64,000 nucleotides of DNA from Oscillospiraceae bacterium (lineage in GTDB: Bacteria > Bacillota > Clostridia > Oscillospirales > Acutalibacteraceae). Below the pieces are notes generated by a model. It was not told the origin of the DNA. It did not search any database and saw nothing but the letters and a program-made list of their open reading frames with translations. The stretch covers positions 1 through 64,000 of the forward strand of contig SVOY01000011.1 in NCBI GenBank assembly GCA_015066105.1, given 5' to 3'. Below are positions 8,967-58,584 of this stretch, one piece after another. A program made the translations under genes and the position numbers. Positions within the stretch are counted from its first letter, which is position 1, and every line of letters starts with the position of its first letter.

Positions 8967-9080
8967 CAGTTTTCCTCCTTTATGATAATTCGCTGTTATA
9001 TGGTTGTTGGTGTAGCAGCCTTTAATTTCGGGCCTCGTCTCTCAGCCCTCGGCCCTTGCCTTTGTCCTCGACCCTTGGCT

Positions 9081-9138: not shown

Positions 9139-9166
9139 CCCATTATACCCCATCTGACAGTGCTTT

Positions 9167-9568: not shown

Positions 9569-9640
9569 AGGGGATAACCTTCTTTCTTTCTGTAAATATG
9601 TATCACAAACCTTGATTTTAAGTTTAAATAATCAAAATAA

Positions 9641-9669
9641 TTGATAAATTTAAAACTCTGTGCTATAAT
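9641..9669 (+). promoter_or_regulatory. Promoter of the PTS EIIC-like gene
   Basis: TTGATA at 9641-9646 and TATAAT at 9664-9669 with a 17-nt spacer. Confidence 0.7.
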
Positions 9670-9711
9670 AAAATCCGTCTTTTATATTAAATTATAAAGA
9701 AGGATTGAAAA

Positions 9712-41702: not shown

Positions 41703-41728
41703 AAAAGCAGTAACCCTCAGGTTACTGC
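41703..41728 (-). terminator. Terminator at the recombinase 3' end
   Basis: GCAGTAACC / GGTTACTGC hairpin with A-rich left and right flanks. On the minus strand it is followed by TTTTTT and overlaps the last codons of the recombinase gene. Confidence 0.7.
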
Positions 41729-43203
41729 AAAAATGGTCGAGCGGGTGGAGATGAATCCGAACCTTCAGTTAAAAAATTATTCTCTTTTTTAAAAGGTATT
41801 CTTTTTGTACCGTCTTTGTAGTTGAGTAAGATTTCAATGCAGTCATCAAAGACAACCACACGGTTTACAAAAGAATCAATAAGTCTTCGCCTGTATTCGA
41901 GGAAATCGGTATCGTAGGTTCTCATTTTATCAAACCAATCGTGCAGTTGCTTTTCCGTTAATTGCGGTCTGCCGATTTTCTCTCGGGCAAGCATTATTTC
42001 AACCTCTTCCTTTCTGCTCTCAAGCTCTTCAAGTCTTTGTCTTGTTGAAGAAGTATAAATGCCGTCCTGAATAGCGTTGAGCATATTGTTGATTTGCTTT
42101 TCGATATGAGATAAGTCCTTTTCTAATCTTGGTATGTTTGTGTTTTCTTTTGAATATTCTTCAAGAATTATTCTGATGAGCTTCTCTATTTTGAGATTAT
42201 CATTAAGAAATTCTTTCACTTCCGATAAAACAGTATCTTCAATCCAATCTTTCTTAACCGCCTTTTTCTTACAACCTTTACGCTTCTTGGCACTGGCACA
42301 CTTGTAATAATGATACTTTTTCATTGTATGACTCGTACCGCTTTCACCAACCATAAAGGACTCACAATCACCGCAATATAGCTTTGTGGTCAGCAGATAA
42401 TCGTCTTCAGCTTTGTGCATGGCAGGAGCCTTTTTATTTGTCTTGAGTCTTTCCTGCACCGCATCAAACAGCTCCTTTGATATAAGAGCCGGCATACCGT
42501 TAGGTGTGATTATATCTTTGTAACGGTACTCACCGATATAACGTCGGTTCTGGAGAAGTCTTGATATGCAGTTAAGATTCATTTTGCCGCCTAAACTGTT
42601 TCCGAGTCCCTTTGAGTCAAGATATTTAACTATTTCTTTCATTGTTACACCGTCCTTGTATTTATTAAACGCTTCAATAACAAGCGGAGCGGTTAGTGGG
42701 TCAATCTCATAATACTTATCCTTGCTTATCTTGTAGCCAACAGGTATGGTGCCGCCGTTATACTTGCATTTAAGAGCGTTCTCCGTCATCCCTCTGACAA
42801 TTTTCTCTGCAAGCTCTGCCGAATAATATTCAGCCATACCCTCAAGAACAGATTCAAGAATAATGCCTTCTGCGCCTTGTGATATTGCTTCTGTAGCGGA
42901 TATTACTTTCACATTATTTTTCTTGAGTAAATGCTTGTAGTAAGCAGAGTCATATCTGTTACGGGCAAAGCGGTCAAGCTTCCACACAATGATTACATCA
43001 AACATATTTTTAGAACTATCTGCAACCATTCGCTGAAAGTCTGGTCTGTTATCCGTTTTAGCGGATAATGCTCTGTCAATATATGAGCCGAGCACAGTAA
43101 TTCCGTTCCTTTCCGCATAAGCAGTACATTCTCTTAACTGCCCGTCAATAGATTCCTCTCTTTGATTTTCGCTTGAATATCTCGCATATATTACACCTTT
43201 CAT
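41722..43203 (-). CDS. Large serine recombinase (TndX/TnpX-like)
   Basis: A 493-residue site-specific recombinase. The resolvase-type catalytic domain (1-140) begins MKGVIYARYSSENQREESIDGQL with nucleophile Ser10 or Ser11 and includes WKLDRFARNR. The Recombinase domain (about 155-265) follows, then a zinc beta-ribbon (CGDCESF...KCASAKKRKGCKKK), and a coiled coil (about 345-410). Such enzymes excise and insert Tn4451-type elements without a tyrosine integrase. The ATG at 43203 has GGAGGTTGAT upstream. The 3' end runs through a hairpin into a CGAGCGGGTGGAGATGAATCC segment that itself resembles a tRNA 3' end. It lies right beside the left 64-bp repeat of the island. Confidence 0.9.
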   Translation of the reverse strand: MKGVIYARYSSENQREESIDGQLRECTAYAERNGITVLGSYIDRALSAKTDNRPDFQRMVADSSKNMFDVIIVWKLDRFARNRYDSAYYKHLLKKNNVKVISATEAISQGAEGIILESVLEGMAEYYSAELAEKIVRGMTENALKCKYNGGTIPVGYKISKDKYYEIDPLTAPLVIEAFNKYKDGVTMKEIVKYLDSKGLGNSLGGKMNLNCISRLLQNRRYIGEYRYKDIITPNGMPALISKELFDAVQERLKTNKKAPAMHKAEDDYLLTTKLYCGDCESFMVGESGTSHTMKKYHYYKCASAKKRKGCKKKAVKKDWIEDTVLSEVKEFLNDNLKIEKLIRIILEEYSKENTNIPRLEKDLSHIEKQINNMLNAIQDGIYTSSTRQRLEELESRKEEVEIMLAREKIGRPQLTEKQLHDWFDKMRTYDTDFLEYRRRLIDSFVNRVVVFDDCIEILLNYKDGTKRIPFKKENNFLTEGSDSSPPARPFLQ

Positions 43204-43262
43204 TTTATCAACCTCCAATATGATTATATATTTTTATTTCTTTTACTCAAATGTGTGAGATT

Positions 43263-43293
43263 GCAGTGCCTCTGATTTTCTCAAAGGCACTGC
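43263..43293. other. Hairpin between the small gene and the recombinase gene
   Basis: GCAGTGCC / GGCACTGC stem with a 15-nt loop. A T-run follows on the plus strand only, so its role for the minus-strand genes is unclear. Confidence 0.5.
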
Positions 43294-43300
43294 TTTTTAA

Positions 43301-43513
43301 TTAAACTGCTGTTTGAACTTTTAAATCTGTTTTAGACTCTTTTTCTATTCTCTGTGATTTTTCTGCTTCCAAATCTTTTAAGATTTCAGGAAGAAGCACC
43401 CGTGCCAAGGAATAGTAAACTGAGTCGGGTATATTGACTTCTGCCAAAGTGCTTTTCAATACCCTTAAACACAGAACTTTTATTGCTTTACAAAACAACT
43501 TAAATTCTTTCAT
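43301..43513 (-). CDS. Small helical protein of the mobile module
   Basis: A 70-residue protein (MKEFKLFCKAIKVLCLRVLKSTLAEVNIPDSVYYSLARVLLPEIL...) predicted to be helical, with a charged C terminus. Its ATG lies within the end of the parB-like gene (8-nt gap region overlaps by a few bases), with GAGGTGATT upstream. Proteins of this size are common beside ParB-like genes in clostridial mobilizable elements, but I cannot name its function. Confidence 0.6.
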   Translation of the reverse strand: MKEFKLFCKAIKVLCLRVLKSTLAEVNIPDSVYYSLARVLLPEILKDLEAEKSQRIEKESKTDLKVQTAV

Positions 43514-43517
43514 CCAA

Positions 43518-44399
43518 TCACCTCGCATCCCTATCTCTCTGTTTAATCAGAAACTTTCTGTAATGCTCGCAAGCCTTCATTACAAATTCCTCAAGTTCTT
43601 TTTTATCCGCCCTCGGTGCAAACTGCTGTAACCGTTCAAGAGGAAATTTTATCGTTTCTTTTTGGTTTGCCTTGTCTTCTTGCATAATGGCTTCAATCTG
43701 TTCTGTATTCAATTCATTACTCTGACTGAGCTTTTTGAAGCGAACTGCCTGCGAGAATGATGGTGTGCGTTCTTCTTCCTCTATCGTGCCGAGAAGAGCA
43801 TACTGCTGTTCATCCGTTAAATATGAAAGCTCAACAGCAGGAGTGAGTGCGATTTTACCTTCATCAACAAGGTCAAGCAGTTCAGGGATAAGATTTGTCA
43901 AACGGATATATCTCTGCACCGTTTTATAGCTCTCACCTGCATTTTCTCCTATTGCTGACAAAGTGCGATTGTCGTCAGACTTCGGGACAGGTTGTCCCAA
44001 AGTTAAATCGTTTCTCTTGCCCTGCGATTTAAGAGCCTCATACTTGAGCTTATAAGCAAACGCCTTCTCGCTCGGTAAAATATGTTCTCTGTGAAGATTG
44101 CTGTCAACAAGCATAATTGCCGCTTCATCTCTGCTTATGGCGTAAATTAAAGCAGGGACTGTTTTCATCCCTGCCTTTACTGCCGCGTGTAAGCGTCTAT
44201 GTCCGCTTATCACCTCGTATTCTTTTTCTGCTTCTTCAATAGGTCTTACAATTATAGGGGATAATATCCCTTGTTCCTTTATGCTTTCTATGAGCAGAGC
44301 CATCTCCTCGTTATCTAATACTTTGTAGGGGTGTCCCTCAAATGAATGAATTTTTTCAGTCGGTATATTTACCGGTGCCTTTAATTTTTTACTTGCCAT
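43518..44399 (-). CDS. ParB/Spo0J-like partition or regulatory protein
   Basis: A 293-residue protein. The ParB N-terminal nuclease-like domain (about 10-100) contains HPYKVLDNEEMALLIESIKEQGILSPIIVRP and the GxxRR box as ISGHRRLHAAVKAG, the CTP-binding region of the family. A helix-turn-helix follows (about 125-190: ENAGESYKTVQRYIRLTNLIPELLDLVDEGKIALTPAVELSYL). There is no partner ParA in view. In mobile elements this protein may aid maintenance or transfer. The start overlaps the upstream MobC-like gene by 11 nt. Confidence 0.88.
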   Translation of the reverse strand: MASKKLKAPVNIPTEKIHSFEGHPYKVLDNEEMALLIESIKEQGILSPIIVRPIEEAEKEYEVISGHRRLHAAVKAGMKTVPALIYAISRDEAAIMLVDSNLHREHILPSEKAFAYKLKYEALKSQGKRNDLTLGQPVPKSDDNRTLSAIGENAGESYKTVQRYIRLTNLIPELLDLVDEGKIALTPAVELSYLTDEQQYALLGTIEEEERTPSFSQAVRFKKLSQSNELNTEQIEAIMQEDKANQKETIKFPLERLQQFAPRADKKELEEFVMKACEHYRKFLIKQRDRDAR

Positions 44400-44769
44400 T
44401 TTTAATAGCCTCCTTTTTTATTTTTCTGATTTGTTTTTTTAGCTTATTGTCATAGTGTACATAGTGCATACGGTGTAAGCTTCTGTCTGTTTCGTACATC
44501 CTTTCCTTTACGGCTTCAAGTTCTTCACCTATCGGTGTATTCTTTAAATCATATTTCAGACAAAGATTTCCGATTAAAGAGCCGACCTTTCTGAATACCA
44601 CAAGAAACTTTATGGCATCTTGGGTTGGTTTCTCTTGTATCGGGTAACCTGCGATAATGTACCGCAGAAGTGCTTCTTTCGGGAAGAAGCTTCTTTTCGC
44701 ATATCCCTGTATTTTTTCGTAGTCCTCATTAGTTATGCGTACCGCTATTCGGTTGTTTCTGCTTCGCAT
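44389..44769 (-). CDS. MobC-like ribbon-helix-helix mobilization protein
   Basis: A 126-residue basic protein. The N-terminal part (NRIAVRITNEDYEKIQGYAKRSFFPKEALLRYIIAGYPIQEKP) is typical of MobC-type relaxosome accessory proteins with a ribbon-helix-helix fold, followed by a helical domain. It is expected to bind oriT. AAAAGGAGATG precedes the start, and it overlaps the upstream RHH gene by 25 nt. The corresponding relaxase gene is missing from this window. Confidence 0.7.
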   Translation of the reverse strand: MRSRNNRIAVRITNEDYEKIQGYAKRSFFPKEALLRYIIAGYPIQEKPTQDAIKFLVVFRKVGSLIGNLCLKYDLKNTPIGEELEAVKERMYETDRSLHRMHYVHYDNKLKKQIRKIKKEAIKNGK

Positions 44770-45077
44770 TTTTTCATCTCCTTTTTAATTTTGGGTATCA
44801 GTTCTTCAATGTCCCTTAATGCTTCCCGCAGCATCTGAACATCAAAAACTACTTTGTGCCACAGTCGGTCTGCAACACTTTCCAATCGGTCAAGAATCGG
44901 ATTCAATGTTAAAGTAAACTCTGTGTAGTTCATCTTCGGTGTGGGTATCATTTCACTTTCTCTTGTTTGTTTTCGCACATATTCTGACCGTGTTAGCCTT
45001 AACGATGCCGCATCTGAATCAAGCTCTTTTAATTCTTCTTCGTCAAGGTAACAGTACAAGGTTTTTGTTAATTTCAT
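44745..45077 (-). CDS. Small ribbon-helix-helix mobilization-type protein
   Basis: A 110-residue protein. MKLTKTLYCYLDEEELKELDSDAASLRLTRSEYVRKQTRES is a ribbon-helix-helix-like start, followed by a long helix of the MobC or relaxosome type (ILDRLESVADRLWHKVVFDVQMLREALRDIEELIPKIKKEM). The open frame begins at 45164, but the ATG at 45077 has AAGGAGGATAGAA upstream. It lies between the oriT-like palindrome at 45121 and the MobC-like gene, which supports a mobilization function. Confidence 0.65.
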   Translation of the reverse strand: MKLTKTLYCYLDEEELKELDSDAASLRLTRSEYVRKQTRESEMIPTPKMNYTEFTLTLNPILDRLESVADRLWHKVVFDVQMLREALRDIEELIPKIKKEMKKCEAETTE

Positions 45078-45094
45078 TTCTATCCTCCTTTCTT

Positions 45095-45165
45095 CGGGTG
45101 TTAGGGTGTCCTTAACAAGCGGATTTGTATGCACAAATCCAGTGCTTGCTAAGACTAATGCCATC
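45095..45165. other. Candidate oriT-like region
   Basis: A perfect palindrome GGATTTGT-ATGC-ACAAATCC at 45121-45140 is flanked by ACAAGC and GCTTG, upstream of the mobilization-type genes. Palindromes with nearby nick-like motifs in front of mob genes are typical of transfer origins. No relaxase is present to act on it here. Confidence 0.4.
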
Positions 45166-45266
45166 TTTTCTGTGTTTAAAATTACCCTTCACTTATATAC
45201 GACATAAGCGCATACAAAATGTTCCAAGGTTTTCAAAAAAATTGAAAAATATTTTTTGGGCATAAA

Positions 45267-45300
45267 AAAACACCTGTTACTTTTGGGGTAACAAGTGTAA
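45267..45300 (-). terminator. Orphan terminator-like hairpin
   Basis: ACCTGTTAC / GTAACAAGT stem with an A-run on the left, which gives a minus-strand terminator although no minus-strand gene lies just to its right. Confidence 0.5.
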
Positions 45301-45308
45301 TTAAAATA

Positions 45309-45337
45309 TTGAATTGTTTGTTTTGGAATGGTATAAT
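45309..45337 (+). promoter_or_regulatory. Promoter of the HAD hydrolase gene
   Basis: TTGAAT at 45309-45314 and TATAAT at 45332-45337, spacing 17 nt. Confidence 0.7.
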
Positions 45338-45372
45338 TATTTTAACGAATATGAGTTTGCAGGTGAATTTAT

Positions 45373-46023
45373 ATGTTTAAAGTTATTGTTTTTGATTTCG
45401 ATTATACTCTTGGAGATTCTACAAATGGTATTGTATTAAGTATAAACTATGCATTAGAACAATTAGGATATAGTCCTAAAAGCACCGATGAAATAAAAAA
45501 GACAATAGGCTTATCGTTAAAAGATACATATTTTCATTTGACCGGAAATGAGAATTTGAAAGAAGCAGAACAATTCGCAAAATTCTTTAAAGAAAAAGCA
45601 GATAAAGTTATGGTTGAAAATACGAGTTTATATGAAGGGGTAAAAGATACTTTAACAAACTTAAGGGATAATGGATATATATGTGCTATTGTAACAACAA
45701 AATTTCATTATAGAATTGAGCAGATATTAAATAAACATAATGCATCTGACCTGATAGATGTAATTGTTGGTGCGGAAGATGTAAAAATAGAGAAACCTAA
45801 CCCCGAAGGATTACTGTGGCTTATAGATTATTTAGGCGTAGAAAAAACTGATATACTTTACATCGGCGACAGCATTGTTGATGCCCAAACTGCTGAAAAT
45901 GCAAAAGTTAAATTTGCAGCTGTGTTGACAGGAACAACATCAAGGGCAGATTTCGAAAATTATAGTAACATATACATAGGTGAGAATGTGCCTGATGTTA
46001 GTAAAAACATTTTGAGTTTATAA
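45373..46023 (+). CDS. HAD-superfamily hydrolase (phosphoglycolate phosphatase-like)
   Basis: A 216-residue HAD phosphatase. Motif I is FDFDYTLGDS (nucleophile Asp8, acid Asp10), motif II TTK (about 108-110), motif III Lys in EKPNPEGL, and motif IV LYIGDSIVDAQTAENA. The alpha-helical cap between I and II places it with phosphoglycolate-phosphatase-like subfamily I enzymes. It is visibly AT-rich and lies between the mobilization genes and the sigma-like gene, with its own promoter. The substrate is unknown. It may be cargo of the island. Confidence 0.85.
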   Translation: MFKVIVFDFDYTLGDSTNGIVLSINYALEQLGYSPKSTDEIKKTIGLSLKDTYFHLTGNENLKEAEQFAKFFKEKADKVMVENTSLYEGVKDTLTNLRDNGYICAIVTTKFHYRIEQILNKHNASDLIDVIVGAEDVKIEKPNPEGLLWLIDYLGVEKTDILYIGDSIVDAQTAENAKVKFAAVLTGTTSRADFENYSNIYIGENVPDVSKNILSL

Positions 46024-46054
46024 AAACTTTCAATTTATAGAACCGAATATTACT

Positions 46055-46134
46055 CAACTGCTCTCTCTGTGAGGGCAGTTTTTTGCACAACAAAAAATCT
46101 CCACCGACTTATTTATCGGTGGAGAAATCTTATA
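46055..46134. terminator. Composite terminator, copy 2 of the 80-bp direct repeat
   Basis: Two hairpins in the same order and orientation as at 41386-41465: CTGCTCTC...GAGGGCAG with T-run (plus strand), and TCTCCACCGA / TCGGTGGAGA (minus strand). It serves the converging HAD and sigma-like genes, and contains the sigma-like stop codon region. Confidence 0.75.
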
Positions 46135-46933
46135 CTGTAATTTTTAACTGTGATTTTATCTTTTTCAGTTTTTTGCCAACAGCACTATGTGTTTTATACC
46201 CTAACTTCTTCGCAATTTCCTCTTGGGTGTAACCTTGAATGTGCAACAGAAGTATTTTTCTGTCCTCTTCAGGTAATGCTCCGATTACCGCTTTTGCTTC
46301 GGCAATATCAAAGGCATCCTCCGCAGGATACTTATCGTCAACATCAGACATCGACACAACCTGTGTCTTTGTTCGGGTGTGATTCCACTTGCGGTTAAAG
46401 TCTTGTTTTGGATAATTCTGCTTGCGGTTTGAAAAATCCTCATGAGTGAGATTACTGTCAACAGTTTCTGCGACTTCACTAAAAGCCATAGCATCCATAA
46501 GGTCGCTCATTCTTTGATTCAGAAATTCATCAGCCGCACCCGGTTCAAAAAACAGCTCAGGGCGATGCTCAAATGCACCTGTAAGAATCTCTTCAATGGC
46601 ATCAGGGTTCTGCTCGGCAAGGTCATACAATATCTCTGCGACATATATGCCGTTATTATCACGAAGCACCGACAAGGGGCTATCCTTCCCGTAAGCGGCA
46701 GGATCATATTTCTGACCTTTTTCTCTTGCTAAACCGTTCCAAGCCGCACCGTGAATTTCTCGCACTCTACCCATTTGCTCCTGGTCTTCGAGTGAGATTG
46801 TGCCGTTTTCATAATCTTTATCACTGTGCCGCCGACGAGCCGAAAAATCATCTTTTAAAAAGTTCTGACGGTACTCCTCTGCGGTATGTTCCTTGCCGAC
46901 ACCGAGAAGCTCAAGCAAAATTTCTTTGTCCAT
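46130..46933 (-). CDS. Sigma-70 region 4-like DNA-binding protein
   Basis: A 267-residue protein. The C-terminal 60 residues (AVIGALPEEDRKILLLHIQGYTQEEIAKKLGYKTHSAVGKKLKKIKSQL) are a sigma region 4 helix-turn-helix. The N-terminal 190 residues are acidic and helical, with no region 2 visible. Proteins like this occur in conjugative or mobilizable clostridial elements. It may recognise promoters as a transcription regulator without being a complete sigma factor. Its start follows GAAAGGTAAAGAT. The 3' end lies in the composite terminator repeat. Confidence 0.7.
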   Translation of the reverse strand: MDKEILLELLGVGKEHTAEEYRQNFLKDDFSARRRHSDKDYENGTISLEDQEQMGRVREIHGAAWNGLAREKGQKYDPAAYGKDSPLSVLRDNNGIYVAEILYDLAEQNPDAIEEILTGAFEHRPELFFEPGAADEFLNQRMSDLMDAMAFSEVAETVDSNLTHEDFSNRKQNYPKQDFNRKWNHTRTKTQVVSMSDVDDKYPAEDAFDIAEAKAVIGALPEEDRKILLLHIQGYTQEEIAKKLGYKTHSAVGKKLKKIKSQLKITV

Positions 46934-47024
46934 ATCTTTACCTTTCTTTCATTATTCCTATATAAAATGATTATATTCTTAAGCAATGTCGAAAAAAGAA
47001 AAAATACAAATAATATAACCTTAA

Positions 47025-49130
47025 TTATATAATTTTGCTGTTTATAAATTCACAACCACAATCACAAGTATATTTCAATTCTTCTTGATCAAAACCTATA
47101 TTCATTGGATGTTTACAGTTCTTGCAAACTGGCACTGCTTGAAATTTTCTATATGGCCTATACTTTGGTGCAAATAGTTGTTCTGCGTAATCTACCATTT
47201 TTTCATTAATTATATCAATGACTTCGTCTACAGTGAAAGCTTTCTCTATGCCCACGATATTTACTATGCGAATTAATTCTTTTGATAAATCTTTTTTGGC
47301 TTCTTCATCCATATTCAAAAGAGAAGAACCCTTCTGACCTTTATTTATAGGTTCAGAAATATCACTAAACCCCATGTCAATGACAAAATTTGTGTATGTT
47401 CTGTTTGTTCCCCAAGCGGCACCAGCCTCAGCTAAGCATATATTTGAATCATAGTACGATCTGCTAAATAGAAAAATGACATGGATATCTTCTCTAAAGC
47501 ATTCATTCAAATAAGAACAAATATCATAACCGGCAGGAACACCAAAATCAGAATTAGATGTAAAAATAATATTTGGGCGTAATTCAGGGCACATTTTTAG
47601 TAAAACGTCGATCAAAAAATTACCGAAATTTTCGCAATCCTTTTTGTGACTTATTAAAATTCTTTTAGTAGGATTAGAAATATTCGCCGCTCTTGTAAAC
47701 TGAAAAAAATCATCTTCAAAAGCTTGTTGATGTTCAATAGGAAGATTATCTAAAACTTCTTTAGATTTTATAGCACCTTTTTTAAATCTGCTTTTAATTT
47801 CTCTACGTTCTTCTTCTTTGGCTAAATCTTCCATTAGTTGTCTATGTTTCTTCATATCGTCAGCAATTTTTTGTCTTTTCGCTACAAGCTTGCTAACTAT
47901 TCCTTTACAAAGAGCTATTAACAATTGAACCCTTTCATCTTGTACCGAAAAATTATCTCGGCCAGCTGTGGCTATATCTTCCAATCCTTCAACATCTAAA
48001 ATATCAAAAGATATTTCTCCTTCTATATAGTTTATAAAAGTAGCGGTCATTCCTAAGTAGTTTAAAAAAGATGATGTAGCCAATTTGTTTCTAACATAAA
48101 TACGAAGTTGATTGGGATTATAGTGCATATTTTTTTTGAAATTTTCGCAGTTTAACTTAGCGTCACTTTGTTCAATAGTTGAGTGTATACCAATCCAACC
48201 CTCTAAAACATATTGATATTTTTTATCATCTATTTCTATTTCACCATAAATTGACTTTGAAAGTTTTTGGCTTTTTCCTGTTTCATCCTTTAATGTTGTA
48301 TCGATTAATTTCGGAACAGGCAATACTTCACGTTTTGTTTGATAGATTTGTTCTTTGGTATTTAATGATTTGTCTCTGAAATATATGATCTCATTGCTCA
48401 AGTCAGCAAACTTGGTCTCATCTGTTGTGTAAATTATGGCCATGTTTTTATGAGCAATACTTTTAGTTACAGGTTTAAATTTGACCTCATCGCTATCCTT
48501 TTTTAAAACGCAAAGTTTTATGTTTTGTGATAAATTTGTTGTCAAAAAATAATTAGCAAGTTTATGTTCTAACGCATCTTCTGCGGCTTCTCCAAAATTA
48601 CTAATTTTAACATTCTTTAACAGAATAATTGTTCCCTTTTTTGATTCGATTAAATCTTTGCCAAAAACATCCTCCATCTGCAATGGATATGCAACCTCAA
48701 TTAGTTGAGGCTTTTTATCATCTTTTTGTTCTTTTGAAATTTCAAGCATCCATGCTCTCGGAACATTCATAAATGCTGTCTTCGTAATTATGTAATATTG
48801 GTTAGATAAATATAATGCAGCTAATTTTCCAATGCCTTTTCGTCCCATTATTTTAACTGCTTCTTCAGGGTTAAGATTCTCTCGTTTATTTCTTCCGACT
48901 ACAGCATAGTTGGATTCTAATGTTTCTTCATTCATTCCTTCGCCATCATCATAAATTGCTATGGTTGCAGAATTTCTATCTCTAATATCCATATAAATAT
49001 ATACATTTTCTGCTTTTGCATCCAGCCCATTAGCTACTAATTCTGCAATAGCTGCACTAATGTTTGCATACAACTGTTTTCCAAACATTTTTAAAGCAAG
49101 ATATGTCATACTAAAATCAATGTTCTTCAT
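47025..49130 (-). CDS. GHKL ATPase-TIR-zinc ribbon defence-type protein
   Basis: A 701-residue protein. Residues 1-about 220 form a GHKL (Hsp90/MutL/MORC-like) ATPase: N box AAIAELVANGLDA (Asn34), DDGEGM (61-66) and GRKGIGKLAAL (96-106). A long middle part (about 220-480) has a coiled-coil stretch (KKHRQLMEDLAKEEERREIKSRF). Residues about 488-625 form a TIR-like domain (KRILISHKKDC, IIFTSNSDFGVPAGYDI, FLFSRSYYDSNICLAEAGAAW) with candidate catalytic Glu568. The C-terminal zinc ribbon has Cys669, Cys672 and a CDCGC cluster (689-693). GGAGGTAAAAA precedes the ATG, and the gene overlaps the methyltransferase gene by 14 nt. TIR domains often cleave NAD in anti-phage immunity, so this is a plausible effector-sensor fusion. 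Confidence 0.85.
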   Translation of the reverse strand: MKNIDFSMTYLALKMFGKQLYANISAAIAELVANGLDAKAENVYIYMDIRDRNSATIAIYDDGEGMNEETLESNYAVVGRNKRENLNPEEAVKIMGRKGIGKLAALYLSNQYYIITKTAFMNVPRAWMLEISKEQKDDKKPQLIEVAYPLQMEDVFGKDLIESKKGTIILLKNVKISNFGEAAEDALEHKLANYFLTTNLSQNIKLCVLKKDSDEVKFKPVTKSIAHKNMAIIYTTDETKFADLSNEIIYFRDKSLNTKEQIYQTKREVLPVPKLIDTTLKDETGKSQKLSKSIYGEIEIDDKKYQYVLEGWIGIHSTIEQSDAKLNCENFKKNMHYNPNQLRIYVRNKLATSSFLNYLGMTATFINYIEGEISFDILDVEGLEDIATAGRDNFSVQDERVQLLIALCKGIVSKLVAKRQKIADDMKKHRQLMEDLAKEEERREIKSRFKKGAIKSKEVLDNLPIEHQQAFEDDFFQFTRAANISNPTKRILISHKKDCENFGNFLIDVLLKMCPELRPNIIFTSNSDFGVPAGYDICSYLNECFREDIHVIFLFSRSYYDSNICLAEAGAAWGTNRTYTNFVIDMGFSDISEPINKGQKGSSLLNMDEEAKKDLSKELIRIVNIVGIEKAFTVDEVIDIINEKMVDYAEQLFAPKYRPYRKFQAVPVCKNCKHPMNIGFDQEELKYTCDCGCEFINSKII

Positions 49131-50115
49131 TTTTTACCTCCTGCATATTAATAGCAATTTGTTTTGAGATTTCTTGAATCACGTTAACAACCACGCTGTT
49201 TCCGAATTGTGAATAACATTCGGAATCCAAACTAGAAATTTTGAAATCATCGGGGAAACCCATAGCTCGTGCACATTCTCGTGGGGATAATCGCCTAACC
49301 TTATTGTCTATTAAGTACATTCCGGTTTTGCCGGCTAATCCACCACCTTGTGAAGACAAAGTAATCGCTTGACCTTTAATTGAATATATTCTCTCTCCTT
49401 GTCTACCTAATCCTACTTGGCCTATCCTTGTTATCTTATTTGTTATTTCTACAGATTTATTCTTTTCTGTATCTATTTCATATTCTCGATTTATATAGTA
49501 TTTACTTGAAACACTCTTTTCTAATATAGATTCTAATGCAATTGTTCTATGCATAGGCTCAGGAAAAATAAATTTTTTAATTTTTAGACTTTTTTTAAAA
49601 GCTACAATATATATTCTTTTACGAGATTGGGGAACACCGTAGTCTGCCGAGTTTAACACCTTGCAAAATACTCTATATCCCACTTTATCAAGTTTATCAA
49701 TAATAGTTTTTAATGTTTCACCATCATCGTGTTTTTCAAGATTTTTTACATTTTCCAAAAGTATTACTTTAGGCTTGTGAAATCTAGCAATACGGATTAT
49801 ATCAAAAAACAACTTTCCGTTTGGATCATTGAATCCTTTTTTTGATCCAGAGATACTAAACGGTTGGCACGGGAATCCTGCACATAGTATATCATGAGAA
49901 GGTATTTCAGCACATGTGATCTTTTTTATATCACCTTGAGGTTTTATTCCGAAATTATTATAATACACTTCTGACGCTGCCTTATTTATATCCGAAGCAA
50001 AAACACACTTGGCACCTAATGAAGAAAGAGCCAAGTGGAACCCTCCTATCCCACAAAACAGATCAATAAAAGTATAACCTTCAAACAATTTATCAGAATC
50101 ATTTACTTTAAACAT
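49117..50115 (-). CDS. DNA (cytosine-5-)-methyltransferase
   Basis: A 332-residue type II-like C5 methyltransferase. Motif I is FIDLFCGIGGF (16-26), motif IV is GFPCQPFS with catalytic Cys83, motif VI is ENV (121-123), motif VIII is QSRKR (163-167), and motif X is YSQFGNSVVVNVI near the C terminus. The target recognition region (about 190-260) is short. The recognition site cannot be read from sequence. No restriction nuclease gene is adjacent. The overlapping downstream GHKL-TIR gene is the likely partner, giving a modification-plus-effector pair. GAGGTTGATTAG precedes the ATG. Confidence 0.95.
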   Translation of the reverse strand: MFKVNDSDKLFEGYTFIDLFCGIGGFHLALSSLGAKCVFASDINKAASEVYYNNFGIKPQGDIKKITCAEIPSHDILCAGFPCQPFSISGSKKGFNDPNGKLFFDIIRIARFHKPKVILLENVKNLEKHDDGETLKTIIDKLDKVGYRVFCKVLNSADYGVPQSRKRIYIVAFKKSLKIKKFIFPEPMHRTIALESILEKSVSSKYYINREYEIDTEKNKSVEITNKITRIGQVGLGRQGERIYSIKGQAITLSSQGGGLAGKTGMYLIDNKVRRLSPRECARAMGFPDDFKISSLDSECYSQFGNSVVVNVIQEISKQIAINMQEVKNEEH

Positions 50116-50219
50116 CTAATCAACCTCGACAAGAATAAAAATACTTCTATTTTATTCTATCATAAACTAAGAATTTCAACAAGTTTTTGTTTGCATCTTT
50201 ATATAATAAGTGTGTGCTT

Positions 50220-50268
50220 ATCAAAAAAGTAACACCGTTTTTTTCACATTTTATCGAACTTTGTCGAC
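50220..50268 (-). promoter_or_regulatory. Upstream control region of the methyltransferase operon
   Basis: On the minus strand TCGACAAAGTTCGA (TCGA-N6-TCGA arms) is followed 20 nt later by GTTACTTTTTT. The same two blocks with the same order and nearly the same spacing lie at 55069-55112 in front of the Detocs-like operon. Confidence 0.6.
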
Positions 50269-50316
50269 TTCCACAATTCATACCCACCCAATCTGTACAA
50301 CTCTCCCAACAATATA

Positions 50317-50356
50317 ATAACCGCCTTACCTGCAAACACAAGTAAGGCGGTCTTTC
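50317..50356 (-). terminator. Terminator of the ABC exporter operon
   Basis: ACCGCCTTAC / GTAAGGCGGT stem with a 12-nt loop, downstream of the second ABC gene. Confidence 0.7.
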
Positions 50357-50387
50357 ATATTCACTTTTACAAATTCAAATCAAAGCG

Positions 50388-52211
50388 TTACACCTTATAA
50401 TACTGTGCCTGGGCGTTCCACAGCTCACTGTATTTATTACCCGACTTAAGCAGCTGCTCATGTGTACCTTTTTCCACAAGCCTTGCCTTATCAAACACAG
50501 CAATCCTGTCACAGAAAATACAACTTGAAAGTCTGTGGGAAATGTAAATTGCAGTTTTGTTTTCCGTAAAGGAGTTGAAACGGCTGTAAATTTCATTCTC
50601 CGCCACGGGGTCAAGAGCCGCCGTAGGCTCGTCAAGAATTACAAGCGGACGGTCCTTGTAAAGAACTCTTGCAAGAGCTAACTTTTGAGCCTCACCGCCT
50701 GAAATGTCAACACCGTTTTTATCAATGTTTTTGTAAAGGTAAGTGTTCTCTTTTTCGGTCATTCGCTCCACTCTGTCCTTGATGTTGGCTTGTTCAAGTG
50801 TGCGGTAAAGTCTGTCTTTGTCATACTCCTTGTCAGCGGCAATATTGTCACAAAGAGGTACGGCAAAAAGCTTAAAATCCTGAAATACAACGGAATAAAG
50901 CTTCATCAGACTTTCCTTTGAATACTCTTTAATGTTAATGCCGTTAATAAGTATTTCACCGCTGTCAACATCATAAAGTCTGCACATAAGCTTGATGAAA
51001 GTGGTTTTACCGCTGCCGTTTCTGCCCACAACTGCAAGGTGCTCACCGTTATGAATAGTCAGATTTATGTTCTCCAAAGCATAGCTTTCGCTGCCCGGGT
51101 ACTTAAAGGAAACATCTTTGAATTCAATCTCAAACTGTGATGTAAGGTCTATTTCCTTTTCACCGTAAACCATATCATCCTCAGTGTGCATTATCTCGTA
51201 GTAATAGTTTACAAGAGGTACCATTTCCTCAGTTTTACCGAAGGTTACAGCCATCTTCATAACACCGCTGATTATCTGCATAAAGGAGCCACAGTAAAGG
51301 ACAAGTGAACCGATACCGAAAAGACCGTAAAGACCTTTTACGCCGATAAACAGATAAACGCCAAAGCCCACTACCGAGCCGAGAATAGCAATAAATGAGC
51401 TTGATTTTGCAGAGTTCATAGAAGCTTTTTTCAGCACCAGCTCACCCTCAGTTAAAATCTTGTGGGTAGCGGTTTTCTCAATAATATCCTGCTCCTTGTA
51501 AAGACGGATTTCCTTGCCTGTCTTGTAGTCGGAGAACATATCAAGAAAATAGTAAAAAATCTTATCAAGACGGGAGTATTCGTCTGATGCTTTGAAATAT
51601 TCCTTGTTCATCTTTGTTGCTACAATGAGCATAATGACAACCATAACCCCAATCGCACCGAAAATACTCAGCAGAAAAGCAGGTCTTTCAAAGAAAGTAT
51701 CTCCCGTTTTCTGAAAGCCGATTTTGAAAAGCGGAAGAATCAGTACAGCTGAAATTATAACTGTCAGTGCACCCGAAACAAAATCCCTGAACATCCAGGA
51801 AAACTGAACAAAAGCTGAAAAGACTCTGTCCTGTGCTTCTGAGTGCTTATGGATAAGCTCTTTGAAGTTGCTGTCTTCAAGCTTTTTAAACTCAACAGAG
51901 AAAAGCTTTGAAGCAATACTTTTAAGCTCTCTGTTATAGAGCATTGAGCGAAGCATATAGTAAATGTCATTAAGATATCTGTTAAGGAAAAACAGAACAA
52001 AGTTGATGCCGACCGCAAGGCAGATGTAGCCTATGAGCCGTTTGGCATCTGCACCCGTATCAAGCAAATCAATAATCTTTGCCGAAAACCAGATGTTGAT
52101 AAAAGGCATAACACCGGTGACAACAGCCGCAGTAACAGTTGTGGGCATAAGCTTTCTTTCAAGGCGTTGCATTTCTTTAAATGCATAGGTAATAGACTTA
52201 AACTTTTTCAT
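50388..52211 (-). CDS. ABC exporter half-transporter B (heterodimer)
   Basis: A 607-residue fused membrane and ATPase protein. The transmembrane domain (about 1-345) has six helices, followed by an ATPase domain with Walker A VGRNGSGKTTF, signature VDISGGEAQKLALARVL, Walker B PLVILDEPTAALDPVAEN and the switch His in ISHRLSS. It pairs with the product of 52198. Heterodimeric exporters of this type move drugs, peptides or lipids outwards. Their start overlaps the partner gene by 14 nt. Composition is more GC-rich than in the flanking defence genes, which suggests a separate origin. Confidence 0.9.
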   Translation of the reverse strand: MKKFKSITYAFKEMQRLERKLMPTTVTAAVVTGVMPFINIWFSAKIIDLLDTGADAKRLIGYICLAVGINFVLFFLNRYLNDIYYMLRSMLYNRELKSIASKLFSVEFKKLEDSNFKELIHKHSEAQDRVFSAFVQFSWMFRDFVSGALTVIISAVLILPLFKIGFQKTGDTFFERPAFLLSIFGAIGVMVVIMLIVATKMNKEYFKASDEYSRLDKIFYYFLDMFSDYKTGKEIRLYKEQDIIEKTATHKILTEGELVLKKASMNSAKSSSFIAILGSVVGFGVYLFIGVKGLYGLFGIGSLVLYCGSFMQIISGVMKMAVTFGKTEEMVPLVNYYYEIMHTEDDMVYGEKEIDLTSQFEIEFKDVSFKYPGSESYALENINLTIHNGEHLAVVGRNGSGKTTFIKLMCRLYDVDSGEILINGINIKEYSKESLMKLYSVVFQDFKLFAVPLCDNIAADKEYDKDRLYRTLEQANIKDRVERMTEKENTYLYKNIDKNGVDISGGEAQKLALARVLYKDRPLVILDEPTAALDPVAENEIYSRFNSFTENKTAIYISHRLSSCIFCDRIAVFDKARLVEKGTHEQLLKSGNKYSELWNAQAQYYKV

Positions 52212-53985
52212 TCTGCAACACCTGCCCTTCCTTGTAATAGTAGCTCTGAAGCTGATACATTCTGTAATATCCGCCCTTGAGTTCCATCAGCTCCTCATGT
52301 GTACCGCTTTCCGTAATTCTGCCGTCAGAGACAAAGAGTATACGGTCACAGAAGAGTGTTGAGGAAAGCCTATGTGAGATGAAAAAGGATATTTTATTCT
52401 GTGTCAGCTCATTGTATTTGAGATACAGCTCATTCTCTGCAATAGGGTCAAGAGCAGCCGTTGGCTCATCAAGAATAAGTACGGGAGCGTTTTTGTAAAC
52501 AGCTTTTGCGAGAAGCAACTTCTGCTTTTCACCGCCCGAAAAGTCTGCCGCATCCTTGTAAACATCCTTAACCATAAAGGTGCTTTCTTTTTCGGGTAAG
52601 CCTTCTATCTTCTCTCTGATACCTGCTTTATCAAATGCAGAATAAAGCTTCTCTTTATCATAGTCAGAGGTGAGACAGATATTTTCTGCAATAGTCATTG
52701 GCATAAAGGTGTAATCCTGAAATACAGGTGCAAAAAGGTCAAAGAAATCGCTCTTTGAAATATCCTTACTGCTAATGCCGTTAACATGAATTTCACCCTC
52801 ACTCGGATAGTACAGACCGCAAAGGAGCTTCACGGCCGTGGTTTTTCCCGCACCGTTTTCACCGACGATTGCAATGTTTTCACCTGCATTTACCTTAAAG
52901 GACATATTCTTGATTGTACTTTCTTCGGCGGAAGGATATGTAAAGGATACATTCTTAAATTCAATTGATGTTATATCGCTGAGCTTATATGAAGTCTTGC
53001 TATTATCGTTTTCATCCTCAGCTTCTGTAAAATCACGGAAAGCCTGACAGTCATTACAGCAACGCTCAAGGTCTGAAACGCAGATAACAAGGTTCATTAT
53101 CCAATTGGAAAAACCCGTAATGATACCGAAATAGAAGATGAAATCAGAAACGCTCAGCTCGTTTTTGTAAACGAGATAAACAAGATAGGCATAGGCAACA
53201 AGCTCTCTTATCATATTTAGAAAAGCTCTTGTGCCGCTGACATTAAAGCTCTGGTGCATATACTTGCCCGTTATCTTCTGAAGCTCATAAACAAACTTAG
53301 CATAGGCTGAAATGAAGTAATCGGAAAAGCCGTAAAGTCTGATATCCTTTGCGGCGGTATTATCTTTGCTCAGCTCATAATAGTAGTCAAGCTTAACAAA
53401 GATACTGCCTCTTGCCCTTTTTACATTCTTCTCTTTTTCATTGAGATAACGAAGCAGGAAAAACTCCCCCACACAGGTAAGAAGGATGAGCAAAATCATA
53501 ATAATGTTGATTTTGTAAATGAGTGTAAGAGAAGTTATTACGCCGAGAACACAAACGAGAAAGGCGTTGCAAAGAGTAATAAAGTACGCCGAGGAAGACC
53601 AATGGCTTCGGTAAAATTCCATAGCTACTTTGTTCTTTTCTCTGCCCTCAAGGCTTTCAATGTTTATGTAGTCTGTATGTATGTTTTTCTTAAAAGCCAT
53701 AACCGCATAACGCATACGGATTACTCTCGCACTGCCCTGTAAAAGCTCATTGAGAAACGGGTCAAGCCAGGTTGTAACCGTAACAAGTACACTCAAAAGA
53801 GCGACTATCAAGGTAAGCTTACCGACGGTAACGCCCTCATTTATGCAGTCAATCATTGCTTTGGGGATAAAGGCTGTTATGATAGGAAGAAAAACCATAG
53901 CGGGAACTCTTACACAAAAGTACAAAAGGCTTTTCTTATCCCACTCTATCCAGTTTTTAATCATATACTTTAAGTTGTCTTTCAT
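52198..53985 (-). CDS. ABC exporter half-transporter A (heterodimer)
   Basis: A 595-residue fused membrane and ATPase protein. Six helices lie in residues 1-about 330, then Walker A VGENGAGKTTAV, signature ADFSGGEKQKLLLAKAV, Walker B PVLILDEPTAALDPIAEN and ISHRLSS. It is the first gene of the exporter operon, with AAGGAGTTGATTAG before the ATG. The 300-nt untranslated leader carries a 12-bp closing stem, a terminator hairpin and a further hairpin (53986-54292). A heterodimeric exporter behind such a leader recalls the bmrB-bmrCD attenuation arrangement in Bacillus. Substrate unknown. Confidence 0.9.
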   Translation of the reverse strand: MKDNLKYMIKNWIEWDKKSLLYFCVRVPAMVFLPIITAFIPKAMIDCINEGVTVGKLTLIVALLSVLVTVTTWLDPFLNELLQGSARVIRMRYAVMAFKKNIHTDYINIESLEGREKNKVAMEFYRSHWSSSAYFITLCNAFLVCVLGVITSLTLIYKINIIMILLILLTCVGEFFLLRYLNEKEKNVKRARGSIFVKLDYYYELSKDNTAAKDIRLYGFSDYFISAYAKFVYELQKITGKYMHQSFNVSGTRAFLNMIRELVAYAYLVYLVYKNELSVSDFIFYFGIITGFSNWIMNLVICVSDLERCCNDCQAFRDFTEAEDENDNSKTSYKLSDITSIEFKNVSFTYPSAEESTIKNMSFKVNAGENIAIVGENGAGKTTAVKLLCGLYYPSEGEIHVNGISSKDISKSDFFDLFAPVFQDYTFMPMTIAENICLTSDYDKEKLYSAFDKAGIREKIEGLPEKESTFMVKDVYKDAADFSGGEKQKLLLAKAVYKNAPVLILDEPTAALDPIAENELYLKYNELTQNKISFFISHRLSSTLFCDRILFVSDGRITESGTHEELMELKGGYYRMYQLQSYYYKEGQVLQNEKV

Positions 53986-55182: not shown

Positions 55183-58100
55183 ATGAAGGAAACATACTTA
55201 TCAAATGTAATTAAACTTATTAAAGGAACAAATGGTCAAGGTTTACAACTGTTACCACACATAAAAAGGACTTTTGGCTACAATAATTATGAACATACTA
55301 TAAAAACAATAATGAATAATATATCTTACAAAGATTATTTTACTAAAGAACTGTTTCCAACTGATATTGATAATATAATTACTAGAGATTATATACCTTT
55401 ATCCTTTGATATGCGTGAAGAATTGGATTATTATATTTTAAATGAAATACTTTGCTTTGTATCTTTATTTCAATGCTTTAATAATGAATTGAAATGTTTT
55501 GTTAAGTTGCGAAACAACTTTGAATACTATTTGTTTTCTGGCCAGTATGAAAATGCTAATAAAATATTGCTTAACATTAAGGAAAAATTCGGATTTAGTT
55601 TTTGGTTAATTGAATCTCAATTATTACTTGCCAATTTTTCGATGAGTGTTGTTCAAGCAGAAAGCTTTTATCAGAATTTAAAAAACGAGTGTAATGATTA
55701 TTATATAAAAAGTTATATAAGAGCATTGAGAAGAAAAACAAATACATATGAAAGCGCAAAGGATTCTCAAAATTTTATAAACAAAAAAGCCAAGGATTTT
55801 ACTGAAATTAAAAAGAATATAAGCGAGTATAAACAAATATATTTTAGTTTTAACAATAATAGATTTGAAGAACTTTCAAAAAACAGTATAAAACTTTTAC
55901 TGGGAATGGCACCCAATTTAAATTTGGTAGATATGTTTTTGCTGATAGATAAAATTATTATATATATTATTGCTGATCGAATTTTTTCGGACACAGATGT
56001 AAAAAAAATTATAAATGTTATTTCTGATTTTTCTGTGCCTTTACGCTGCAAATGCATATGTGATTTAATCAACAAAAAAATAGATGAACAAGAAAAATTG
56101 ACAGAAATAGTGTATGATCTAAAAATGGAAATTAACTATGCTGTTAAAAACAACTTTTCGAATTGCAAAAAAGTTGAAATTAAACAATATTGCGCCTCTT
56201 TTGATGTAGTTTTAAGTAATACTATGTTGAAGCTTTTGGGACAAAAAAGTATAAAATTTGATAGTGATTTATTGGGCATGCTGGTTGAAGTTATAGAGCT
56301 TTGTTTGCTTAAAGATGGAAATTACAATATATTTACTAAGATTGTTAATAATGCAGAAAGATTATTACTGCTTTTAGATAGCACTACAATGAATTTCGGT
56401 TATACAAATTTTTATACTGATGTTTTTAAGGGCGATAATAGTCAATTTTTTAAAAGTGTAGTTTCTAGCGGTTATTACAATAGATATGCATTATCTTTAA
56501 TAAATTTTGACAACGATGAATTATTTAAAGTATTTAATGACCGTTTTGGTTGTTTCGAATGTAATTGGTATCACAATATTTCAATTGACGAAAGATTAAA
56601 ATATGACCAAATAACGATGGAGTTATATAATATTGAAAACACAGCTGCTGTTGACAATATGTTATATATGATGCAATCAAAAACAACTGTATTGGATATT
56701 ATTCTTTTCAACAGGTGTTGTGAAAGACTATATGTAATATATATCAATAATGGAGAAATTATTTTAGCAATAAAACTGTATGTAGATTTACAGTTTGAAT
56801 CCAAATTTAAAGTTTGTAATTTTGATAATGATCTATTAACACGCAAGTTAAATGGTGTGATTATTCCAAAGTTATATTCAAATATAGATTTTTGTATATA
56901 CGCTCATTTGACAAACTTTAGAGGTGCTGTTGGTCTAAGATATAATACGCAAGTCGCAAATTCAATTATGGCTATTTTGAAGGCGAATAAGATGAAATTC
57001 CCTTCTGAGCTATACAATCAAATTGATATGAACAGTTGGTTGGAACGAGCAAAATATGCTTATTTATTTAGACATATTTGTGGAGAAGATTTGTTGAAGA
57101 GCAGATTGACAGGATACTCAATTAATACAGAAACCATGTCAGAACAGACAAAAATAGTATTAGAAGAAAGAAAGCAGTTACTTCTTTTAACAAAGAGTTT
57201 AGAATCAAGTGAAGAAATAAGTCAAATAGAGTCGCAAATAGAAAAGATTGATAGGAAAATAGGTTCAATTGACAATGTAAACTTATCGGATTATATGGTT
57301 TTATATGCTAAAATCTTAGAGGACGCTATCAGTGTTTCGGATACAGATATAATATTGCCGTTTTATAAAAGTATAAATAATATTAAAGTCCAACAAACCA
57401 AGTGTAATTTCGATGATTTTTCTTCTGGAGAATTTTTGATTTTCAGAGACTCATTCGTTAAATATAAGGAAGCTTATTTGAAATCTTTAGATGAACAAAT
57501 TGGTATAAATATAAGACACGGTTTCTTGAAAAACGAAATAATCAATTTTTTTTATGAGAGACATATTGCATTTAAGAAATTTCCCAGTAAAGAATCTGAA
57601 GTGTCGGCTTGTATAGATAACAAAATAATAAAATTAAGAGAATCTGAAGAAAACACATTCTTGATCGGATATATTTACGACATAGTTAATTTTTCAAAGG
57701 ATCTATATAATTTTGTTGATCACTTACTTGTGACACTTCGAATAAAAAGTTCTTCCGAAGAAACTGATGGTGCTTTTGACATATTCATACAGAATAAAGA
57801 GATTTCAAAATTGGCTAAAATATTAATTGAAACAAACAACCCATACGAATTTAAAAACAAGCTTCATAAAGAAATGAGCGAGATTATCGATCCTAGATTG
57901 CAAATTATTGGAAATTATATCGAAAAAACCATCAAACAAGTGTGCGTAAATTTAATTAATGAACATTTTGAAAAACCCTACTTAAATGATTATAAAATGT
58001 TAGAAAAAATGAAAAACGTAAAAAACGATGTTGCGAACATAGCAGGAGAAATAAAAAAGTGGTTTAAATTCGTAAAAAATGGTGATGAGTTGTGTTCAAT

Positions 58101-58584
58101 CAGTAAATATTTTTCTGCTTTAAAAAACAAAAAAAACTATATTTTTTATTCGTTGAGCGATAATATTCCAGATGGCATAAAATTTTATCAATTGCATATA
58201 TTAGATTTAATTCTATTGAATCTAATTATGAATGCAGAAGAACACTCAGGATTAGACAAGCATCAATTAAAAATCCACACCTCATTAAGCGTTAATAAAA
58301 ACATAATGAAAATATATTTCAGCAATAATCTTAGTGTCGAAACTAACAAAGACTACATTTTAGAAAAAATGGCGGTATTAGAGTGTAACTTAAGCAATTG
58401 CAAAAATAATAATTATGTAAACAAAGGAAGCGGAAATGGTTTTTTTCATATTGCTCATGCATTAAATTCTTTAGTGGATTCAAATTGGCAGGTGTCTTTT
58501 TGCAAAGATGAACTTCCAAAAAAATTTGCACTAAATATAACTATAGATTGGAGCGGATTAATTGAAAAAAGTATTAGTGATTGA
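55183..58584 (+). CDS. dtcA: Detocs-type sensor histidine kinase-like protein (DtcA-like)
   Basis: A 1133-residue, AT-rich gene product. The N-terminal 750 residues are helical and lack membrane segments, a plausible repeat-type sensor region. IRHGFL at about residue 779 is a candidate phospho-acceptor His. The C-terminal ATPase domain (about 960-1130) has N-box LLNLIMNAEEHSG (Asn1013 and Asn1017 region) and glycine box KGSGNGFFH (1081-1089). Such a cytoplasmic kinase followed by a lone receiver and a receiver-nucleosidase is the arrangement of the Detocs anti-phage system, where DtcA detects infection and phosphorylates DtcC. The start has AGGGGGAAG upstream. The stop overlaps the next gene by 23 nt. 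Confidence 0.78.
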   Translation: MKETYLSNVIKLIKGTNGQGLQLLPHIKRTFGYNNYEHTIKTIMNNISYKDYFTKELFPTDIDNIITRDYIPLSFDMREELDYYILNEILCFVSLFQCFNNELKCFVKLRNNFEYYLFSGQYENANKILLNIKEKFGFSFWLIESQLLLANFSMSVVQAESFYQNLKNECNDYYIKSYIRALRRKTNTYESAKDSQNFINKKAKDFTEIKKNISEYKQIYFSFNNNRFEELSKNSIKLLLGMAPNLNLVDMFLLIDKIIIYIIADRIFSDTDVKKIINVISDFSVPLRCKCICDLINKKIDEQEKLTEIVYDLKMEINYAVKNNFSNCKKVEIKQYCASFDVVLSNTMLKLLGQKSIKFDSDLLGMLVEVIELCLLKDGNYNIFTKIVNNAERLLLLLDSTTMNFGYTNFYTDVFKGDNSQFFKSVVSSGYYNRYALSLINFDNDELFKVFNDRFGCFECNWYHNISIDERLKYDQITMELYNIENTAAVDNMLYMMQSKTTVLDIILFNRCCERLYVIYINNGEIILAIKLYVDLQFESKFKVCNFDNDLLTRKLNGVIIPKLYSNIDFCIYAHLTNFRGAVGLRYNTQVANSIMAILKANKMKFPSELYNQIDMNSWLERAKYAYLFRHICGEDLLKSRLTGYSINTETMSEQTKIVLEERKQLLLLTKSLESSEEISQIESQIEKIDRKIGSIDNVNLSDYMVLYAKILEDAISVSDTDIILPFYKSINNIKVQQTKCNFDDFSSGEFLIFRDSFVKYKEAYLKSLDEQIGINIRHGFLKNEIINFFYERHIAFKKFPSKESEVSACIDNKIIKLRESEENTFLIGYIYDIVNFSKDLYNFVDHLLVTLRIKSSSEETDGAFDIFIQNKEISKLAKILIETNNPYEFKNKLHKEMSEIIDPRLQIIGNYIEKTIKQVCVNLINEHFEKPYLNDYKMLEKMKNVKNDVANIAGEIKKWFKFVKNGDELCSISKYFSALKNKKNYIFYSLSDNIPDGIKFYQLHILDLILLNLIMNAEEHSGLDKHQLKIHTSLSVNKNIMKIYFSNNLSVETNKDYILEKMAVLECNLSNCKNNNYVNKGSGNGFFHIAHALNSLVDSNWQVSFCKDELPKKFALNITIDWSGLIEKSISD

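Follow-up and report, generated by a model that had tools for sequence, protein, structure and literature searches.

Proteins in which a GHKL ATPase domain and an S5-like domain are followed by a TIR domain were described in 2008 as paraMORC4, in restriction-modification (R-M) neighbourhoods with DNA methylases, and for their TIR domain a role as nuclease or as binding site was proposed (Iyer, Abhiman and Aravind 2008, PMC2292703; papers are cited here and below from the portions available). Defence by a GHKL-controlled nuclease is experimental in VcSduA (PMC12137116). In SpbK, a TIR protein that degrades nicotinamide adenine dinucleotide (NAD; such enzymes are called NADases), defence was abolished by G194R as well as by W197A, both of them defective in filaments and in NADase activity, and the residues modelled at NAD include E192 (PMC12847820). 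Here, a 64,000-nucleotide stretch of an Oscillospiraceae bacterium (contig SVOY01000011.1 of assembly GCA_015066105.1; hereafter, the window) was analysed for a two-gene locus at 47025-50115, where a C5-cytosine methyltransferase gene (dcm) is coupled to a gene for a GHKL-TIR-zinc ribbon protein. The initial annotation, made from the sequence alone, had proposed the two as a possibly undescribed defence pair. The gene pair itself was confirmed at these positions, but "possibly undescribed" had to be given up, since the 2008 paper already covers GHKL-S5-TIR proteins with DNA methylases in R-M neighbourhoods (PMC2292703).

The preferred reading, with a probability of about 0.58, is that the two genes form an R-M-like defence pair whose restriction step is replaced by NAD depletion under the control of methylation. 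The HhaI-type methyltransferase would mark the cell's own sites, predicted to be GCGC. The GHKL-S5 part, which is related to the N-terminal half of restriction enzymes of the BbrUII/HgiDII type, would dimerise with ATP and clamp or scan DNA, and at unmethylated sites on incoming DNA it would bring TIR domains together. The gathered TIR domains would form a composite active site of the SpbK type, NAD would be destroyed, and the infected cell would be stopped. Methyltransferase and GHKL part would thus be a matched specificity unit, with the TIR-ribbon as an exchangeable effector. Methylation gating is the least certain step. The case is built from sequence comparison and structure models, namely the domain identities, predicted catalytic residues that appear intact, recurrent pairing, purifying selection, a conflict between module trees and a correlation between the methyltransferase and the GHKL part.

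The dcm gene (49117..50115, minus strand) encodes a 332-residue C5-cytosine DNA methyltransferase of the M.HhaI type and comes first; the gene for the 701-residue GHKL ATPase-coiled coil-TIR-zinc ribbon protein (47025..49130, minus strand) starts 14 nt inside it. A terminator-like hairpin of 15 pairs, seven of them G-C, was found by consensus scan at 50319..50352 on the minus strand and belongs to the upstream ABC transporter gene. Since it lies between that gene and dcm, the pair looks like a single transcription unit. The layout suggests that transcription begins within 50116-50318, the interval between hairpin and dcm, in which consensus scanning, the only method applied, found no promoter-like site on the minus strand. 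Relative to a near-copy from the survey below (L014), the ratio of nonsynonymous to synonymous substitution rates (dN/dS) was 0.079 for the GHKL-TIR gene and 0.018 for dcm, indicating purifying selection on both.

The TIR domain, of the SpbK type, covers residues 488-625 (47256..47669, minus strand). Since HSP90-type proteins filled the first 50 Foldseek matches of the full-length model (HSP90, SMCHD1 and MORC2 are among the matches listed), the TIR region was modelled and searched separately. The TIR call of the initial annotation stood, the nearest solved relative being the NADase SpbK (PDB 9PHB). The spbK profile was matched over positions 115-275 of 308 only, and the N-terminal part of the present protein is GHKL. 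Glu568 (codon 47427..47429, minus strand), already singled out as a candidate residue, aligns with SpbK Glu192 and is followed by G570 (= G194) and W573 (= W197). The three align with residues 216, 218 and 221 of the PDB chain, which were equated with SpbK E192, G194 and W197 by an offset of 24, deduced from the agreement of the residue letters, and they are invariant in 34/34 aligned GHKL-TIR proteins. The domain may therefore be considered a putative NADase and the probable effector of the pair. The Hx[ST]xD motif is absent from it (HKKDC), and the strict motif is found in 11 of the 34 aligned proteins.

The tail that follows (47028..47132, minus strand) carries C669, C672, C689 and C693, which are kept in 4/4 aligned ribbon proteins and bear out the zinc ribbon of the initial annotation. 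Since Pfam ribbon matches of the tail are sub-threshold only, the name rests on these four cysteines and on predicted strands. The ribbon goes with the TIR domain; among the tails printed, it was seen by eye only in the window, L014, L031 and L038. It could perhaps bind DNA.

The GHKL ATPase domain occupies about residues 1-200 (48531..49130; the boundary is approximate, from invariant columns and Foldseek). E30, N34, D37, D61, G63, G65, G96-R97-K98-G99 and G101-K102-L103 are invariant in all 34 aligned GHKL-TIR proteins, and the HATPase match is confined to the N-terminus (25-143). An S5/transducer-like middle domain (about residues 201-398, 47937..48530), with invariant K349 and R391, is a candidate site-sensing region, and the AlphaFold2 model places a coiled-coil helix at residues 399-462 (47745..47936), all on the minus strand. 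No nuclease domain was recognised in the 701-residue protein, in which restriction enzyme models match the N-terminal GHKL part only. The profile of BbrUII and HgiDII (NF050001), named as restriction enzymes in NCBIfam and presumed to be active, gave 156.6 bits, below the curated cut-off of 550, over profile positions 8-407 of 659 only, and the match extends through residue 469. It was matched end to end by two survey proteins, L075 and L085 (746 and 745 bits). This difference supports the earlier suggestion that the TIR domain stands in place of a nuclease. In L075 and L085, a C-terminal D...ELK motif, seen by eye and without a convincing Pfam match, is presumably that of a PD-(D/E)XK nuclease. 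PADLOC-DB 2.0.0 gave four partial matches to the 701-residue protein (spbK, two REase_II models and MzaB; E ≤0.01), and no model of the whole GHKL-TIR-ribbon fusion was among them.

The dcm product matches PF00145 (E 7e-98) and aligns with M.HhaI over residues 7-322 (351 bits, E 4.5e-104) with 162 of 314 aligned residues identical (52%). Full-length similarity, catalytic motifs and recognition loop make it M.HhaI-type. Residues kept are C81, which we take to be the catalytic cysteine, E119, R163 and R165, and also Q237, E239, R240, S252 and G255-G257, presumed to be recognition residues. Since the catalytic cysteine and these presumed recognition residues are kept in an enzyme so like M.HhaI, GCGC is the best guess for its target, as predicted from sequence. 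The observed/expected (O/E) ratio of GCGC was 0.66 in about 248 kb of host DNA; in samples of genus-mates it was 0.56 in the other carrier (G016) and 0.68, 0.96, 0.97, 1.06 and 1.12 in five genomes without a system match (20-40 kb from each of the five). These counts lean towards depletion in carriers, but they were not used as evidence for the site because the samples are small, their G+C is unequal and other palindromes are lower. M.HgiDII acts at GTCGAC, and M.BbrUII is a C5 methyltransferase (PMC5867850); GTCGAC was set aside as the target since the methyltransferase here is HhaI-like.

Relatives were surveyed in one genome per species (84,980 species), the query being a four-protein alignment. 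The best 80 of 230 confirmed loci were kept, a sample neither random nor complete and with many metagenome-assembled genomes. The table comprises 84 loci (the window, L014-L093, and L010, L012 and L013 from other searches), among which window/L014, L057/L062, L068/L069 and L035/L036/L039 are near-copies. There were 49 GHKL-TIR loci, 15 with GHKL and a histidine-kinase-like end, and 20 others; labels were assigned mechanically, so that L035, L036 and L039 count as "other" even though the HATPase_c threshold is reached by L035. The coupling to a methyltransferase, first noticed in the window, recurs, with dcm within 300 bp in 38/49 GHKL-TIR loci, 15/15 kinase-like loci and 19/20 others. At those 38 loci, dcm precedes the GHKL gene on the same strand in 31 and overlaps it in 25. 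In the 11 remaining GHKL-TIR loci the picture is mixed. L025, L059 and L072 have a dcm at 453-489 bp and L058 at 2.7 kb; L038 and L071 lie at contig ends, and none was seen in the 6-kb contig of L051. The other four are L045, with a broken gene, and the DISARM-associated L049, L055 and L070, both described below. Hosts belong to many bacterial phyla, with two archaeal records (L052 and L065). Close to the host the system is rare, since 197 relatives' genomes gave one other full-length match, G016 (97%), the same record as L014. A single-protein scan of viral contigs found 29 stretches that matched a pattern, none of which was confirmed. Three partial matches turned up in phage records (the GHKL part in two cases and the TIR part in one). 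Among plasmids there were 27 matching records, each matched within the N-terminal part (no further than residue 418) and none reaching 80% coverage.

Some of these loci show further variations. The GHKL-TIR gene of L045 (4917-6991) is in three reading frames, with a full-length dcm overlapping the first fragment, and in L046 (3990-9631) a single dcm is flanked by two different GHKL-TIR genes. Several dcm-GHKL-TIR pairs have a gene for a Vsr-like endonuclease nearby (L010, L015, L061, L064, L068, L074 and others); none was found in the window at 42001-53000.

The divergence of the methyltransferase was compared with that of each half of its partner in 38 GHKL-TIR loci; L014, L069, L045, L010 and all loci lacking a dcm within 500 bp were excluded. 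Methyltransferase distance correlated with GHKL distance at a partial r of 0.41 with TIR held (0/2000 permutations as high), and with TIR distance at 0.17 with GHKL held (p 0.016). Values were 0.43 for GHKL vs -0.16 for TIR in the long group (16 loci) and 0.24 vs -0.03 in the short group (22 loci). Across four locus sets and four GHKL stretches (whole or 140-residue pieces), the GHKL value was higher in 15/16 comparisons, so stretch length is not the explanation, although some margins are small (0.12 vs 0.09). Within the long and short groups, the middle domain tracks the methyltransferase better than residues 1-140, whereas over all loci residues 1-140 are best. Since related sequences are not independent, these correlations are indications, not proofs, that the methyltransferase diverges in step with GHKL more than with TIR. 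Within the table, the HhaI recognition loop pattern QGERIYS is found only in the nearest dcm of the window, L014-L018 and L048, and the GHKL modules of these loci fall in one set (L014 being a near-copy of the window).

The two halves of the protein point to different relatives. Identity between the window and L015 is 46% for GHKL, 57% for the methyltransferase and 20% for TIR, and with L031 it is 22%, 24% and 49%, respectively. In the GHKL tree, the window is grouped with six proteins of the TIR-A type, L015-L018, L025 and L048 (99/97); uniting the three ribbon proteins in one clade is rejected by the approximately unbiased (AU) test (p 1.7e-4; 28 chosen rows, without the long-branched L046). 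In the TIR tree (49 rows), its partners are L031 and L038 (99/94), with four stand-alone SpbK-like TIR domains adjacent (96/92), and the AU test rejects a position among the six proteins that neighbour it by GHKL (p 8e-6). A conflict between the modules is thus supported by AU tests from both sides and suggests an exchange of modules, with GHKL and methyltransferase of the window apparently of one kinship and the TIR-ribbon of another.

Other C-terminal modules are found on the wider GHKL family. In L081 the C-terminal module is a Ymh domain (E 2.5e-16); Ymh is a HEPN family, and its fusion to paraMORCs is in print (PMC3710099). L021 ends in HATPase_c and is similar to the end of L012, which is followed by a gene that by eye is response regulator-like, an arrangement as in PMC8011034. 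The GHKL module of the window falls in a set of 31 with TIR-A and kinase-like types (Shimodaira-Hasegawa-like approximate likelihood ratio test, SH-aLRT, 100) in a GHKL tree that omits L014, L036, L039, L045, L047, L063 and L069. A broader proposal, for which the odds seem to us slightly short of even, is that there is a class of R-M-like systems made of two exchangeable cartridges. One would be a methyltransferase and a GHKL part that co-evolve and distinguish self from non-self through methylation of a specific site, and the other an interchangeable effector on the GHKL clamp, whether an NADase TIR (at least three lineages), HEPN, a histidine-kinase-like module or a nuclease. The HhaI-type (GCGC) cartridge of the window would then have received a TIR-ribbon of the SpbK type, and NAD depletion would be gated by methylation.

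Several observations weigh against the preferred reading. Regarding the site, M.HhaI K89 and Y254, both presumed recognition residues, are changed in dcm, and GCGC is only the 10th of 16 palindromes by depletion in the sampled host DNA. Both trees have long branches, that of the window among them. For GHKL residues 281-420 without the window, the correlation is below that of TIR (0.20 vs 0.28), the sole exception in the 16 comparisons, and over all loci the correlation of TIR with the methyltransferase also exceeds that of most permutations (p 0.016; 4/500). L025 departs from the matched pair, since its GHKL module is in the window's set but no HhaI-type loop is present in its nearest dcm. L049, L055 and L070 have GHKL-TIR genes among DISARM genes (DrmMI in L049, DrmMI and DrmA in L055, DrmD in L070), with no dcm found adjacent. 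Finally, the signal sensed by the GHKL part might not be methylation, and SpbK is triggered by the phage portal protein YonE, not DNA (PMC12847820).

These last points define the best-surviving alternative, in which the GHKL part senses a phage protein, an altered DNA structure or the loss of the methyltransferase, and the TIR domain still acts through loss of NAD. SpbK activation by a portal protein (PMC12847820) and the three DISARM-associated genes fit it, but dcm stands within 300 bp in 38/49 GHKL-TIR loci and the methyltransferase-GHKL correlation persists with TIR held, and we regard this alternative as unlikely. Less likely again is that the TIR domain is a nuclease, as suggested in 2008 by parallel with the C-terminal nucleases of paraMORC3 and MutL (PMC2292703). 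Two wider family members do match a restriction enzyme model end to end; against this, the nearest solved relative of the TIR domain is an NADase, and its residues invariant in 34/34 proteins are the NAD-site Glu and the self-association residues of SpbK.

SpbK makes canonical cyclic ADP-ribose as well as ADP-ribose (PMC12847820), and the TIR domain could produce such a signal for a separate effector gene. We find this improbable, since no candidate effector was seen beside the pair, where dcm, Vsr, GHKL and TIR neighbours were the ones surveyed systematically, and the next gene downstream in the window is sigma-70 region-4-like, while different open reading frames lie around the L031 copy (L009). 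Weakest is a selfish addiction module, in which methyltransferase loss would kill the cell and so keep a mobile element with little anti-phage benefit; the serine recombinase, NikA-like and ParB-like genes near the pair and a predicted design that would resemble post-segregational killing fit it, yet it is compatible with defence, and we give it very little weight.

The pair sits in a mobile/defence island setting, which was counted in favour of the R-M-like NAD-depletion reading. Local G+C is about 0.31 vs 0.44-0.48 across much of the window. On one side are the serine recombinase (41722-43218) and the ParB-like and NikA-like genes; on the other, ABC transporter genes, a TnpV gene and a candidate defence operon like PDC-M60 adjoining tRNA-Pro. 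The serine recombinase, ParB-like gene and two NikA-like genes (41722-45164) are signs of a mobile element, which may carry the pair. The PDC-M60-like operon has three genes (55183-60239, plus strand; G+C about 0.27) between the TnpV gene and tRNA-Pro; its matches are 2e-11 for A, 4e-10 for B, with a receiver domain, and 2e-57 for C, with a phosphorylase-type domain. The sigma-70 region-4-like gene (46130-46933) lies directly downstream of the pair and adjoins it in L003 too. At 45294-46053 the window has a HAD hydrolase gene, where L014 has other DNA (8084-9924) and L003, from the same genome as L014, a gene that is AraC-like by eye.

If the preferred reading is true, restriction-modification need not cut DNA, as the same methylation code would trigger cell shutdown, and two separately studied branches of bacterial immunity would be linked. 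The 2008 in silico idea of a possible TIR "nuclease" could then be put sharply to the test, with E568 as the residue and GCGC as the site to examine. An exchange of sensors and effectors would also explain why the C-terminal halves are so different in the GHKL family, some members of which are named restriction enzymes. In literature listings (titles and abstract starts of the top 12-25 entries, with few subscription papers covered), no description of a methylation-gated TIR or NADase system was seen, and TIR is not mentioned in the portion of PMC11514479 available.

Compared with paraMORC4, the locus shares the N-terminal GHKL motifs and S5-like domain, the C-terminal TIR and a DNA methylase in the neighbourhood. 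It differs in that the Hx[ST]xD motif given there is absent, so it is of paraMORC4 type in architecture but not a member; the zinc ribbon and the module-tree conflict are not named in the available portion of that paper (PMC2292703). With the BbrUII/HgiDII enzymes (NF050001) it shares the GHKL and middle domains, and dcm stands beside L075 and L085 as here, but their C-terminal part is replaced by TIR and ribbon. With SpbK of Bacillus subtilis it shares the TIR fold, the NAD-site Glu and the self-association residues, whereas SpbK senses the phage portal YonE with another N-terminal domain, absent here (PMC12847820). The HEF_HK/Response_reg_2 (PMC8011034) and Ymh-HEPN paraMORCs (PMC3710099) likewise have a GHKL protein near DNA methylases or R-M genes but carry a histidine-kinase-like or HEPN module, not TIR; the C-terminal HATPase_c of the HEF_HK type is not present in the 701-residue protein, which has TIR on that side. 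In VcSduA, a Shedu protein with GHKL, the GHKL domain is also joined to an effector, and both ATPase and effector residues are needed for defence; its effector, however, is a PD-(D/E)xK nuclease, and phage is reported to be restricted while the cell survives (PMC12137116). The Shedu type I-D nuclease domain (DUF4263) has no Pfam match at E ≤1 in the 701-residue protein, where TIR is found instead. As far as our searches reach, the kind of system is already known, and the proposed mechanism, the module-tree conflict and the HhaI cartridge are new.

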